A program made the position numbers and the translations under genes. Positions 4,979 to 37,270 of a stretch of DNA of 64,000 bases are shown here, piece by piece. How positions within the stretch are numbered: the first letter of the stretch is position 1; every line of letters begins with the position of its first letter. The notes under the pieces were generated by a model. It was not told the DNA's origin, ran no database searches, and saw only the letters and a program-made list of their open reading frames with translations. Source of the DNA: Desulfuribacillus stibiiarsenatis (GTDB lineage Bacteria > Bacillota > Bacilli > Desulfuribacillales > Desulfuribacillaceae); contig NZ_MJAT01000004.1 of assembly GCF_001742305.1 (NCBI RefSeq), positions 1 through 64,000 on the forward strand. The letters run 5' to 3'.

Positions 4979-6406
4979 ATGGGGATAAAGATTAATGACC
5001 AAAGTTTCAAGAAAAATCTTAAAAAGAATCTAAACGATGATTTTATGCGTGCCGCAATGGTGAAAGCACAAGATTTAATTAACAAAAATAGAGCGAACGT
5101 GCTATCGCAATTGGGCGATGGTAATTACCAAGAGTGGCAAAAACTATCAGGAGAAGTTCGTGCCCACGCTATTGAAAACTTAGATTTCTACTTAAATCAA
5201 TTCGCTGAAAATGTTGTCAAAAATGGAGGCAACGTATTTTTTGCAAAGGATGCAAAGGAAGCCTCTCAGTATATTACGAATCTAGCAATAGAAAAAGGCG
5301 TAAAAAAAGTAGTAAAAGCTAAATCGATGGTTACAGAGGAAATTGGAATTAACCACGATTTGATTGATGCTGGGGTAGATGTAAAAGAAACTGACTTAGC
5401 GGAATACATTTTGCAATTAGATGACTGGAATCCACCTTCACATATGGTAGTGCCATCGTTACATTTAAACAAAACGCAAATTCGTGATGTTTTTGCCAAA
5501 AATGGATATTCTGGTAAGGATATTCCAGAAGATTTAGCTGCATTCGCTCGTGCCCAATTGCGTAACGAGTTCGTAACGGCTGATATGGGAATTTACGGAT
5601 GTAACTTTGCGATTGCGGAATCAGGAGCGATTACATTAATCAGTAATGAAGGAAATATCGATCTTTGTACATCAGCACCTGAATTACAGGTAGCGGTAAT
5701 GGGTATGGAACGGATTTTAGCTACCTATGAAGATGCTGATATCTGCATTAGCTTACTAGCTAGAAATGCAGTAGGGGCAAAAAACACAAGCTATACGACA
5801 TTTGTAAACGGCATTACTGAAGAAGGCGCTGCAGATGGTGCGAAAGAATTTCATGTAGTGATCGTTGATAATGGACGTTCTAAGGTATTAAAGTCTCAAT
5901 TTAAAGAAGTATTGCAATGTATGCGTTGTGCAGCATGTCTAAATATCTGTCCAATATATCGTCAAGTTGGTGGACATTCATATAATTCTATCTATTCTGG
6001 GCCACTGGGTGTTGTATTAACGCCACTTCTTGCTGGCTATGATGACTTTGAAGAACTTCCATATATGTGTTCGCTTTGTGGTGCGTGTACAGAAGTTTGT
6101 CCATCGAATATCAAGTTGCATTCATTGATTCATGAACACAAGCGTGTATTAGCGGAAGACAAGAAGGCCTCTACATTCTGGGGAGCGGGTATGACTGGAG
6201 CAGGCATGGTGTTCAGCCGTCCATGGATGTATAAGTTAGGAACGGGTGTTGCGCCACTGATGACAAAGCCATTTATGGTAGATGGAAAAATAAAAAGAGG
6301 TGTCAGTGTTCTTAAAGGTTGGACAGATAAACGTGATATGCCAGCATTGGAGAAAGTACGTTTTAGAGATTGGTATACCTCTAGAAGTAAAGGAGGAAAT
6401 AAATAA
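4979..6406 (+). CDS. lutB: L-lactate utilisation iron-sulfur protein LutB
   Basis: 475 aa, the usual LutB size. The N-terminal LUD-fold domain is followed by two [4Fe-4S] motifs: Cys314-x2-317-x2-320-x3-324 (CMRCAACLNICP) and Cys364-x2-367-x2-370-x3-374 (CSLCGACTEVCP). It is thought to carry electrons from lactate oxidation to the quinone pool or other acceptors. It starts 14 nt after lutA with an AAAGGAGAG site. Its stop overlaps the lutC start by one base (TAATG), so LutC translation is probably coupled. Confidence 0.93.
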   Translation: MGIKINDQSFKKNLKKNLNDDFMRAAMVKAQDLINKNRANVLSQLGDGNYQEWQKLSGEVRAHAIENLDFYLNQFAENVVKNGGNVFFAKDAKEASQYITNLAIEKGVKKVVKAKSMVTEEIGINHDLIDAGVDVKETDLAEYILQLDDWNPPSHMVVPSLHLNKTQIRDVFAKNGYSGKDIPEDLAAFARAQLRNEFVTADMGIYGCNFAIAESGAITLISNEGNIDLCTSAPELQVAVMGMERILATYEDADICISLLARNAVGAKNTSYTTFVNGITEEGAADGAKEFHVVIVDNGRSKVLKSQFKEVLQCMRCAACLNICPIYRQVGGHSYNSIYSGPLGVVLTPLLAGYDDFEELPYMCSLCGACTEVCPSNIKLHSLIHEHKRVLAEDKKASTFWGAGMTGAGMVFSRPWMYKLGTGVAPLMTKPFMVDGKIKRGVSVLKGWTDKRDMPALEKVRFRDWYTSRSKGGNK

Positions 6407-7116
6407 TGAAACAGGGACAAATTTTAAATAGAGAATCATTTATTTCTAACATTTCAAGCATACTGGGTCGAGAAATGCCAAAAGAGGTCGTGCATCCTGG
6501 TTTATCAAGCAAACCTCAGCTTGAAATATATAAGGGCTTTACGCAAGCGCAATTAGCTGAAGAATTCCATAAAAATGCCCAAATTAACAAAGCCGGATCG
6601 GGTGGTAAGATTGATTCCTTAATTATCGAGAAAAAAGATCTTGCAAAAACGGTAGCTGAGAAATTAGCTGAACATGGAGCAGGGCCAATTATCGCTTGGA
6701 ACGATGAGCGTTTTGCAGAATGGGGCCTAAATGATGTGTTGAATGATGCATATGTTTGGACTGATGAAAAAGGCCGTGAAAATGTAGATAAAGCTTTGAA
6801 AGCGTCATATGGTGTATGCATTAGCGATATTTCACTTGCTGAAACAGCTTCTTACACTGTCATTGATAAGTTGGGAAAAGGAAGATCGTCAAACTTCCTG
6901 CCTTTAAATTATGTATGTATTGTACCGCAAAGTACAATTGTACCACGTTTAACACAAGCAATGCAAAAGCTTCATGAAATGTCCAAAGAGGGAATCAACC
7001 CTGCAGCCATTAACTTTATTTGTGGTTCAAGTAGTTCTTCTGACATTGAGTTAAACAAGGTATGGGGCGTACATGGACCTATTCGTTTAACATATCTTAT
7101 TGTCTCTGATTTATAA
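6406..7116 (+). CDS. lutC: Lactate utilisation protein LutC (LUD domain)
   Basis: 236 aa, a stand-alone LUD domain (residues about 60-235) with the typical ISLAETASYTVID and VCIVPQSTIV segments. It completes the LutABC complex for growth on L-lactate. The ATG shares a base with the lutB stop, and an AAAGGAGG ribosome site sits inside the end of lutB. No lactate permease or LutR-type (GntR) regulator is adjacent; the upstream MarR gene is the only nearby regulator. A terminator follows. Confidence 0.92.
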   Translation: MKQGQILNRESFISNISSILGREMPKEVVHPGLSSKPQLEIYKGFTQAQLAEEFHKNAQINKAGSGGKIDSLIIEKKDLAKTVAEKLAEHGAGPIIAWNDERFAEWGLNDVLNDAYVWTDEKGRENVDKALKASYGVCISDISLAETASYTVIDKLGKGRSSNFLPLNYVCIVPQSTIVPRLTQAMQKLHEMSKEGINPAAINFICGSSSSSDIELNKVWGVHGPIRLTYLIVSDL

Positions 7117-33332: not shown

Positions 33333-33451
33333 CATCTAAAAACGCCAAGTTTGGCGTTTTTTTATTGGGACTATGTAACAATACATGTTATGCTATTATG
33401 TCAGATTAAATAGTAGCATAAATCTCCATAGGCTCATAAGATATTTGCAGA
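33333..33451 (+). repeat. 119-bp direct repeat, copy 1 (contains a terminator)
   Basis: This segment recurs at 37123-37242 with one inserted base and no other difference. It starts CATCTAAAAACGCC, includes a terminator (AAACGCC/GGCGTTT plus T run, 33340-33365), and ends ATATTTGCAGA. Copy 1 follows the LEA-like gene by 6 bp and serves as its terminator. The two copies bound a 3.7-kb island. Confidence 0.95.
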
Positions 33452-33543
33452 TAAATTTTTTGATGATTGATATAGCAATCGTCGTAGCGATTTTTAGCTC
33501 TATAACTTTATGAAGTTGATTCATTTTATAAAAAAAGACCATT

Positions 33544-33901: not shown

Positions 33902-34471
33902 TCAATATACAAAGGATGGATGGAGTCTAGCGGTTTCGGTTCCATTTGCTACGGCAGTTACGTTATTTAAAAATTTCGCTTTTATTAAATGTTTTAAAGG
34001 TTGGTCTACCGTATTGAAATACGTAAATACTTTACTTGCTTTCTCATCCCACTCGATATAACAAGTTAAATAGTCATTGGCTGTCAATTTTGTTCTAGAT
34101 GTGCCTCTTTCTGGTACACATTCAAACTCTTCATCTTCACCCATTGCTCTGTAATCACACGTTAATTGTTCATCTAGTTCAGCTAACTCAAAACCATATG
34201 CGGTATCTACACAATTATAATGAAAACTATGATTCATATACCTTGCATGGTCCCAACATAGAATATACCCATCATCATCTTCATAGGAGCATTTATATAT
34301 ATACTCTTGTCTAGCTTCATCGAGACTTTCAATGTAATCCTCATCAAGAACCATATCTAATTCATCTTGAATCCAGATAATGGTTTCTTTAGGGATTAAT
34401 TTTGTAGCAAACACACCTATGCCGACTTTATCACTTACATATTTAATTTCTGACCAGAATGTATCAAAAAT
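33902..34471 (-). CDS. SET-domain protein, unusual ATT start
   Basis: About 189 aa. The pattern YVSDKVGIGVFATKLIPKETI, then WDHARYMNHS, then AYGFELAELDEQLTCDY spells the SET fold: NHS binds AdoMet and the last Tyr is catalytic. Such bacterial proteins are probably lysine methyltransferases. The conserved GxGVFA segment extends beyond the first GTG (34414). The only position with a ribosome site (AAGGAG, 34482-34477) is an ATT at 34471, either a rare start or a mutated ATG. At the 3' end a tandem ATCC duplication shifts the frame and removes an acidic IDDEEDES tail. Confidence 0.6.
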   Translation of the reverse strand: MFDTFWSEIKYVSDKVGIGVFATKLIPKETIIWIQDELDMVLDEDYIESLDEARQEYIYKCSYEDDDGYILCWDHARYMNHSFHYNCVDTAYGFELAELDEQLTCDYRAMGEDEEFECVPERGTSRTKLTANDYLTCYIEWDEKASKVFTYFNTVDQPLKHLIKAKFLNNVTAVANGTETARLHPSFVY

Positions 34472-34945: not shown

Positions 34946-34995
34946 GAAGACTTTGACTTGGTGGGAGATATTGGAAAGCGTGAAATGGTTACAAA

Positions 34996-35032
34996 ATCCT
35001 TAAGATGTCGTACAATTTAAGTTGTACGACAT
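34996..35032 (+). repeat. Left 37-bp inverted repeat with dif-like 28-bp core
   Basis: ATCCTTAAG (34996-35004) is followed by the 28-bp core 35005-35032: 11-bp arm ATGTCGTACAA, 6-bp centre TTTAAG, 11-bp arm TTGTACGACAT. The arms are exact complements of each other. The 11-6-11 layout is that of Xer dif sites; the asymmetric centre gives the site a direction. A weak inward promoter (GTTACA 34988-34993, TACAAT 35011-35016, 17-bp spacing) overlaps it. Confidence 0.85.
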
Positions 35033-35113
35033 GATTCGATATAAACCGTCAAAAAATTACAATTTATTCTATAACATATATTAACAGATATTACAATGAT
35101 ACACCATACTTTT

Positions 35114-36076
35114 TCACGAATTCAAAAATTCTTTTAAACAATCGTTAACGTAATCAGGCGATTCTTTTTTTAGAGGATCAATATTATGTAAATATCGTTG
35201 AGTAGTATTAATCTGCTCATGTCCAAGGTTTTCTTGAACATGCTTTAAGTTAGCTCCCTGAGCTAATGCTAGAGTAGCATGAGTATGGCGCAACCAATGA
35301 GGAGTAACTTTTTTATCAAAAGTGCACTTATCCCGAGCATTTTGTATAATTCGCTCAACTTGACGAACAGATAAGGAAAACAAGGTCGCTTTAGTTTGCC
35401 CCGAATATTTTGATAGGGATACTAAATGTTCATTTAGCAAATCCCATAATTTTCTAGGTACTTTAACCTCTCGTTGCTTCCCTCCTTTACCGTTTACTAT
35501 ACGCAACCAGATTAATGTATCAGAGGCGTCAAAATAAAAGTGGTCCCAACATATAGAAAGCAATTCAGAAACTCGAAGTCCTAATAATATTAAAATTAAG
35601 CCAATCAGATAATCACGATTACTTTGTTTTTTTAATTCTAGAAGCAGCATCTTTGTTTCACGTATTGTAAGATAGTGATGTTTGCTATTAATCGGCACTT
35701 TGGGTATTTGGAGACAGGTTGTAGGATTCTTTTGAAAAAAACCTATGTTAAGGTCACTACCCCATTTATATAGGGAACGAATTGGTGCTATTCGGTTAGC
35801 GACAGTAGCTGGTGATAATGGTTTTTTGCTTTTAGTATGTATTCCATTCATTAAACTCAATTTATAAAGCTCTAATTCTTTCCATGTTATTAAATGAAGT
35901 GCTTTAAATCCAATAAAAAAACGAAATTCGTCGATGGATCTCTTATAATTCCTCAATGTATTTTGAGACCAAGGACGGGATAATAAAAAAATATTAATGA
36001 TTTGTTCATCTGAAAAACTGTCAGAATTCATAATGACCTTTATTTGAGAATCTTGAAAATGTTGATAAATACTCAT
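35114..36076 (-). CDS. Tyrosine recombinase/integrase (XerC/D-like)
   Basis: 320 aa. A SAM-like N-terminal core-binding domain (about 25-120; SQNTLRNYKRSIDEFRFF) precedes the catalytic domain (about 140-305). All catalytic residues are present: Arg in GLRVSELL (about 167), Lys in GKGGKQREV (about 200), HWLRH (His/Arg, about 262-266), His in LGHEQINTTQ and the Tyr nucleophile in QRYLHN (about 297). It is the sole gene between the inverted dif-like sites, and AAGGGGG lies just before its ATG. No excisionase or other phage genes are near. It probably acts on its flanking sites; a host Xer role is unlikely. Confidence 0.9.
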   Translation of the reverse strand: MSIYQHFQDSQIKVIMNSDSFSDEQIINIFLLSRPWSQNTLRNYKRSIDEFRFFIGFKALHLITWKELELYKLSLMNGIHTKSKKPLSPATVANRIAPIRSLYKWGSDLNIGFFQKNPTTCLQIPKVPINSKHHYLTIRETKMLLLELKKQSNRDYLIGLILILLGLRVSELLSICWDHFYFDASDTLIWLRIVNGKGGKQREVKVPRKLWDLLNEHLVSLSKYSGQTKATLFSLSVRQVERIIQNARDKCTFDKKVTPHWLRHTHATLALAQGANLKHVQENLGHEQINTTQRYLHNIDPLKKESPDYVNDCLKEFLNS

Positions 36077-36091
36077 GAGAACCCCCTTAAG

Positions 36092-36128
36092 ATGTCGTAC
36101 AACTTAAATTGTACGACATCTTAAGGAT
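36092..36128 (-). repeat. Right 37-bp inverted repeat with dif-like 28-bp core
   Basis: Exact reverse complement of 34996-35032. On the + strand the core (36092-36119) reads arm ATGTCGTACAA, centre CTTAAA, arm TTGTACGACAT, so its centre is inverted relative to the left site (TTTAAG). Unlike the left copy it also has CTTAAG on the inner side (36086-36091), making a longer palindrome there. Confidence 0.9.
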
Positions 36129-36136: not shown

Positions 36137-36153
36137 AGGGGAGGTGGGGTTAT

Positions 36154-36837
36154 TTGTTCAGCAATTTATACCATTGTTTTCAGCCTATACGTAGAATTAA
36201 TAATCTAGAGATTTTCGGATGGGAGGCACTTTTGCGGGGACCCGATTCACCAACGAAACTATTTATGGAAGCTGAGAAAAATGGGATGTCAATAGTTTTG
36301 GACATGCTGTCTCAAACACAAGCACTTAAAACAATGAATGAGAATAATTTCAGGGGTAAGAGGTTCATTAATTGTAATTTATGTACATTTACTAATGATA
36401 AAAGTTTATTAAATAGACTGCATGAATTACCACAAAAGGAAAGCATTGTAATTGAAATCACTGAGGGACAGAGATTTTATGAATGTGATAGGTCGAAAAT
36501 CAGATACACAATAAAAGAACTTAAAAGAATAGGAGTCAAAATTGCAATTGATGATTTTGGTTCTGGGTACTCCAATCTCTTTTTAATTGATTATTTGGAA
36601 CCGGATTATATAAAAACAGATCGATCTCTTATAACAAATATTATGGACAAGGGAAAGCAATTTACACTAATGAAAGCAATCGCTAAACTAGGCAGAGAAA
36701 TGAATGTGATTATTATCGCTGAAGGGATTGAAAATGAGATACAAAAAGAATTATTACTAGATTGTGGGATTGAATTAGGTCAAGGCTGGTTGTTTGATCC
36801 ACCAATCGAAAGAAATAACACAAAAGAATTTAAGTAA
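36154..36837 (+). CDS. EAL-domain c-di-GMP phosphodiesterase, single domain
   Basis: 227 aa from a TTG (36154) after AAGGGGAGG; an in-frame ATG at 36109 lies inside the recombination site. A lone EAL domain with no sensor. Active-site residues are all visible: the EAL glutamate in WEALLRG, NCN (about 72-74), ITE (about 102-104), DDFGSGYSNL (about 129-138), IKTD (about 152-155), AEGIE (about 192-196) and QGWLF near the end. It should linearise c-di-GMP to pGpG. No promoter is seen between the cassette and the gene, so transcription probably enters from the cassette side. It precedes a dead chemotaxis-receptor fragment. Confidence 0.88.
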   Translation: MFSNLYHCFQPIRRINNLEIFGWEALLRGPDSPTKLFMEAEKNGMSIVLDMLSQTQALKTMNENNFRGKRFINCNLCTFTNDKSLLNRLHELPQKESIVIEITEGQRFYECDRSKIRYTIKELKRIGVKIAIDDFGSGYSNLFLIDYLEPDYIKTDRSLITNIMDKGKQFTLMKAIAKLGREMNVIIIAEGIENEIQKELLLDCGIELGQGWLFDPPIERNNTKEFK

Positions 36838-37122: not shown

Positions 37123-37242
37123 CATCTAAAAACGCCAAGTTTGGCGTTTTTTTATTGGGACTATGTAACAATACATGTTATGGCTATTATGTCAGATTAA
37201 ATAGTAGCATAAATCTCCATAGGCTCATAAGATATTTGCAGA
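37123..37242 (+). repeat. 120-bp direct repeat, copy 2
   Basis: Identical to 33333-33451 except one extra G in TATGGCTATT. It carries the same terminator (about 37130-37155). It begins at the end of the MCP remnant and ends 28 bp before the VCBS-like gene, so it also contributes the leader of that gene. Confidence 0.95.
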
Positions 37243-37270
37243 ATAGATATTTATGAGAAGGAGTTTTTAT

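Follow-up and report, generated by a model that had tools for sequence, protein, structure and literature searches.

A probable DNA-inversion switch built around its own tyrosine recombinase gene, upstream of a c-di-GMP gene in Desulfuribacillus stibiiarsenatis, and its relatives in Bacilli

The closest described architecture to the element reported here is the Hin/fljBA system of Salmonella. There, the invertase gene lies in an invertible segment of roughly 1 kb bounded by inverted sites, and an outward promoter drives, in one orientation, a motility operon. Like Hin, the cassette of D. stibiiarsenatis and the related cassettes (together, the window family) place the recombinase inside an inverted segment of about 1 kb, and most relatives have an outward promoter. 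Hin is a serine recombinase with hix sites and a Fis-bound enhancer, whereas the window family combines a tyrosine recombinase with 11-6-11 sites whose 6-bp centres are specific to each element, and its targets are c-di-GMP or chemotaxis genes. Both the fljBA invertible segment with its promoter (PMC9368917) and the position of Hin within its segment (PMC5903667) have been described. The closest function is found in the pdcB switch (Cdi2) of Clostridioides difficile, an invertible promoter upstream of a c-di-GMP phosphodiesterase gene that underlies phase variation of motility (PMC9286219). Unlike the window family, its 174-bp segment carries no recombinase gene, and the recombinase that it requires was unidentified at the time (PMC9286219).

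Further partial likenesses have been reported. In Clostridia, invertible sites lie near MCP and HD-type phosphodiesterase genes; in Providencia stuartii, one fimbrial invertible segment encloses a recombinase (PMC5903667). The former share the kind of neighbours and the latter the enclosed recombinase with the window family, but these are single reported loci in other clades, and no family with the present 11-6-11 sites is described in that paper. The tyrosine recombinase PsrA is encoded in the pneumococcal cod locus that it inverts (PMC7096588); in contrast to the window family, hsdS coding sequence is shuffled there through repeats of 15 bp and longer, and no promoter is flipped. A literature search on such switches in Paenibacillus and other Bacilli returned nothing relevant, most subscription journals being outside its coverage. 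The initial annotation of this DNA had stated that no described element of exactly this form was known. This stands in so far as no description of the family was found; as to form, Hin and the Providencia segment (PMC5903667) are precedents. The family of cassettes has apparently not been described before; the type of switch is known, and these cassettes are a variant of it.

The window cassette and its recombinase

The window is the whole stretch of DNA that was analysed, 64,000 nucleotides of D. stibiiarsenatis (GCF_001742305.1, NZ_MJAT01000004.1, positions 1 to 64,000 of the forward strand). The features discussed below are, by window position:

33902-34414, minus strand: SET-domain protein (PF00856, weak match)
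34991-35032, no strand: left inverted repeat, 3' site of the recombinase gene, centre TTTAAG, core 35005-35032
35033-35113, minus strand: interval from the recombinase stop to the 3' site, where relatives have an outward sigma-A promoter
35114-36076, minus strand: tyrosine recombinase, 320 aa, intact, the sole gene inside the invertible segment
36092-36133, no strand: right inverted repeat, 5' site of the recombinase gene, centre CTTAAA, core 36092-36119
36139-36146, plus strand: likely ribosome-binding site of the EAL gene, GGGGAGGT, read from the sequence
36154-36837, plus strand: EAL-domain c-di-GMP phosphodiesterase, presumed target (EAL PF00563, E=4.6e-42)

The two repeats match over 42 nt at 98%, and the exact part is 37 nt long (34996-35032 and 36092-36128). 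The 28-bp cores read ATGTCGTACAA-TTTAAG-TTGTACGACAT on the left and ATGTCGTACAA-CTTAAA-TTGTACGACAT on the right. The initial annotation had described exact 37-bp inverted repeats around a lone, complete tyrosine recombinase gene, with 11-bp arms and these two centres in each 28-bp core; the coordinates and gene content were confirmed. Since the core is nearly palindromic, alignment of the sites as direct repeats still gives 33 identities in 35 positions; the 6-bp centres are identical only when read inverted. Across the whole 3.12-Mb genome the core pattern occurs twice only, at the two cassette sites, and the reversed control pattern does not occur in it.

The recombinase matches Phage_integrase (PF00589, E=2.9e-24), and its catalytic residues R168, K197, H260, R263, H286 and Y295 are invariant among 22 sequences. 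The Phage_integrase domain and the catalytic R-K-H-R-H-Y set by which the tyrosine recombinase superfamily is recognised are thus both present. The Hin family was rejected on this ground, being one of serine DNA invertases. The best-scoring recombinase families were XerA, XerC and XerD, none of which could be assigned: the protein reached 143, 134 and 124 bits, far below the curated NCBIfam cut-offs of 220, 335 and 330, respectively. The 11-6-11 layout is common to the window sites and to those of XerC/XerD and archaeal XerA with dif. The Xer/dif system, however, resolves chromosome dimers and has a single dif per chromosome, whereas the window has two sites, paired around the recombinase gene, and none elsewhere. 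The earlier label 'dif-like' is therefore apt for the layout and for nothing beyond it. Plasmid and phage collections contained only distant integrases, below 33% identity to the window recombinase; the viral collection likewise gave only distant integrases, with higher identity restricted to short stretches at the catalytic motifs. The enzyme is therefore not of a phage or plasmid integrase family.

Related cassettes and evidence for inversion

Single-sequence pattern scans of the named and viral collections detected no relatives of the recombinase; these were found instead by a genome search of the class and then an alignment query. The class search (399 genomes) revealed recombinase relatives in Bacilli at about 49-60% identity. 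The family was widened by genus-level searches and by the alignment query against named genomes, which gave 363 recombinase relatives in one named collection, 80 of which were fetched. Once identical copies were removed, 102 elements were analysed; of these, 86 have two well-scoring sites, with arms like those of the window. The family recombinases are 44-60% identical to that of the window and come from, among others, Paenibacillus, Cohnella, Brevibacillus, Aneurinibacillus, Tepidibacillus, Fontibacillus and Gorillibacterium. Each cassette consists of a tyrosine recombinase between inverted 11-6-11 sites. The check proposed in the initial annotation, a genome search for this recombinase with paired inverted 28-bp sites, thus yielded about 100 cassettes, in Bacilli. 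The elements share ancestry, so their counts are not counts of independent events. A recombinase group of about 35% identity (L030-L036) was excluded from the element counts because most of its loci have a lone palindromic site, with no second copy found within 1.5 kb. At six of these seven loci, the site lies beside the gene and resembles TATAGCGATAA-N7-TTATCGCTATA, with a 7-bp centre.

The centres of the family sites comprise 42 different 6-mers. Within one element, the inverted reading makes the two centres identical in 85 of 86 cases, the direct reading in none of the 86. With shuffled partners, the inverted matches averaged 4.1 and never exceeded 12 in 2000 permutations. Such matching is what one expects if strand exchange needs identical centres at both sites.

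Four pairs of related species carry the cassette at a shared locus in opposite orientations, with colinear flanks and with breakpoints that fall inside the sites. The clearest case is the Paenibacillus pair L114 (Paenibacillus sp. GM2, same contig as L176) and L108: the left and right flanks align directly at 87.3% and 88.4%, and the cassette aligns in reverse at 89.3%; the changes of orientation are located inside 5009-5036 and 6502-6529, which are the two sites. The cassette is likewise reversed between L119 (P. sanguinis) and L113 (P. senegalimassiliensis) at 87.7%, between L063 and L062 at 72.8%, and at the same locus between L111 (Fontibacillus) and L104. On the recombinase tree (92 rows), the orientation relative to the target changes at least 16 times. 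Three draft contigs break off inside a site (L118, L163 and L194) and a fourth begins at one (L259). This suggests mixed orientations in the sequenced cultures, but the limits of assemblers can also break contigs at inverted repeats when no mixed population is present.

Judged by comparison between related species, with no read data, the family cassettes are shown to invert reversibly. The presence of both orientations at one locus, a criterion of phase variation, is met between related species, and so is the criterion of Hin-type architecture that the invertase gene lies within the inverted segment. It had been predicted from the opposed centres that the recombinase segment inverts; the centre matches and the same-locus pairs bear this out. 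An observation named in advance as refuting it, a single orientation in all relatives, fails, as relatives show both.

Inversion of the window's very copy is only inferred, because the nearest sequenced relative, G001, has no recombinase; it is the other of the two genomes in the order. We also considered that the window recombinase is inactive and the repeats are mere remnants. The cassette is present as a single copy with no sequenced close relative carrying one, it lacks a clear promoter, and broken recombinases occur among the relatives (L075, L076 and L077). Against such decay stand the reading frame of 320 aa, which is unbroken and retains every catalytic residue, and the exact 37-nt repeats with matching centres, and we regard a dead relic as improbable.

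Target genes, promoter and proposed switch

In 99 of the 102 elements, one of the sites has a match to a c-di-GMP or chemotaxis gene no more than 0.8 kb beyond it, directed away from the cassette. HD-GYP genes are the commonest neighbours, followed by CheW-CheA operons, EAL, MCP, CheX and GGDEF-EAL. The recombinase and the target are divergent in 66 elements and co-directional in 26. At the Paenibacillus TatD/HD-GYP locus the genes on both sides read away from the cassette, so the target could be either. On the recombinase tree, at least 12 changes in the class of neighbour are needed, and the module has therefore become attached to several operons.

Such spread over several operons, together with the two or more copies found in some genomes, could also indicate a small transposon-like element moved by the recombinase, the repeats being its ends and the signalling-gene neighbourhood an insertion preference. 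Yet a target-site duplication of any length was not above chance in 86 elements, which removes the second refuting observation named in the initial annotation; the only 6-bp duplication match of the window is the palindrome CTTAAG, itself within the repeat. Moreover, both full sites are retained and the target is without exception directed away from the site. ALTERNATIVES: the transposon-like reading is disfavoured because duplications are absent, the inverted centres match and colinear inversions occur at fixed loci, and we consider it very improbable.

In the window, the EAL gene reads away from the right site and its match begins 34 bp beyond the site. The mechanically called reading frame starts at 36109, within the right site, and the start is likely the TTG at 36154, 34 bp past this site. 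Relative to this gene, the window presumably shows the OFF orientation. The cassette had been called self-contained, which is correct in that its own recombinase lies between the sites, but it is not merely so. It precedes a c-di-GMP or chemotaxis gene and, in the majority of the relatives, has an outward promoter, and is therefore a gene switch.

In the surroundings of the window cassette, a stretch of some 120 nt recurs in direct orientation (33333-33464 and 37123-37256), exact but for 1-nt indels and then fading, with a terminator inside. The 3.8-kb block between the two copies holds the SET-domain gene, the cassette, the EAL gene and the broken end of an MCP gene, and gives the impression of having been inserted or duplicated in one piece. 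There are also signs that the chemotaxis locus was formerly larger. The SET-domain gene, left of the cassette, reads away from it, and as the cassette is now oriented, its outward end faces this gene across about 0.6 kb.

In the family, 80-135 bp usually separate the recombinase stop from the 3' site. An exact TATAAT in outward orientation is found in this interval in 68 of 94 elements (72%), compared with 21% in shuffled intervals and 11% on the other strand. In 33 elements it is accompanied by a properly spaced TTG, which occurs in at most two elements in any other interval. After dereplication to 70 elements, TATAAT remained in 64% and the properly spaced TTG in 24 elements. In 92 flanks between the site and the target, no promoter directed at the target matched strongly. 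The outward promoter that belongs to Hin-type architecture is thus present in most relatives. In the window, the candidate is TTGTAA-17-TATAGA (35096 down to 35068); against shuffles its score is at chance level (best score p about 0.37), and the promoter step for the window is therefore carried over from the family. One Paenibacillus locus (G401, L262:1930-2060) has no recombinase; upstream of its HD-GYP gene, the outward promoter typical of the family persists together with a decayed site. This switch is apparently frozen ON, and the retained promoter is as would be expected if the promoter serves the target.

It is also conceivable, though in our judgement unlikely, that inversion is real and that transcription from an outside promoter through the recombinase into the target matters, not the promoter of the 3' interval. 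Recombinase and target are indeed co-directional in 26 elements, and the window has no clear 3' promoter. Strong sigma-D-like promoters directed inward from the target flank are few (7 of 92 at 11/12 or better, about 0.5 expected); this weak excess is suggestive, a lead only. The strong conservation of the outward TATAAT and its persistence at G401, where the recombinase is gone, speak against read-through as the main route. Read-through may add to the 3' promoter or, in the window, replace it.

We therefore favour, with considerable confidence, the reading that the window element is an autonomous DNA-inversion switch of a 1.1-kb segment upstream of a motility/c-di-GMP gene. In the proposed mechanism, the tyrosine recombinase would recombine the two inverted 11-6-11 sites around its own gene and flip the 1.1-kb segment reversibly. 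With the recombinase pointing to the target (26 elements), the sigma-A promoter of the 3' interval would face the target, the presumed ON state. With the recombinase pointing away (66 elements, window included), the promoter would face away, the presumed OFF state. The promoter of the recombinase probably lies outside the segment, because the ATG is too near the 5' site (15 bp from the right core in the window), and each flip is inferred to swap the flank that drives it. Phase variation would be expected to follow, with c-di-GMP breakdown or chemotaxis changing stochastically, the dependence of expression on orientation being inferred. A bolder and rather doubtful possibility is a portable switch of Bacilli in which outside sigma-D-like flagellar promoters drive the recombinase, so that a flip rewires its own expression in a feedback memory circuit. 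If true, the flip rate would be coupled to the motility programme under the target's control.

The cassette, of a kind borne by many soil bacteria, very probably serves as an inbuilt device that turns motility behaviour on and off at random. What emerges appears to be an extensive, so far uncharted family of self-contained invertible promoters among environmental Bacilli, whose targets are, time and again, c-di-GMP breakdown and chemotaxis. Paenibacillus and its kin are known for colony-pattern switching, and motility phase variation would become directly testable in them. Finally, a module of one enzyme and one pair of sites, together with 42 natural centres, amounts to a parts set for independent genetic switches.
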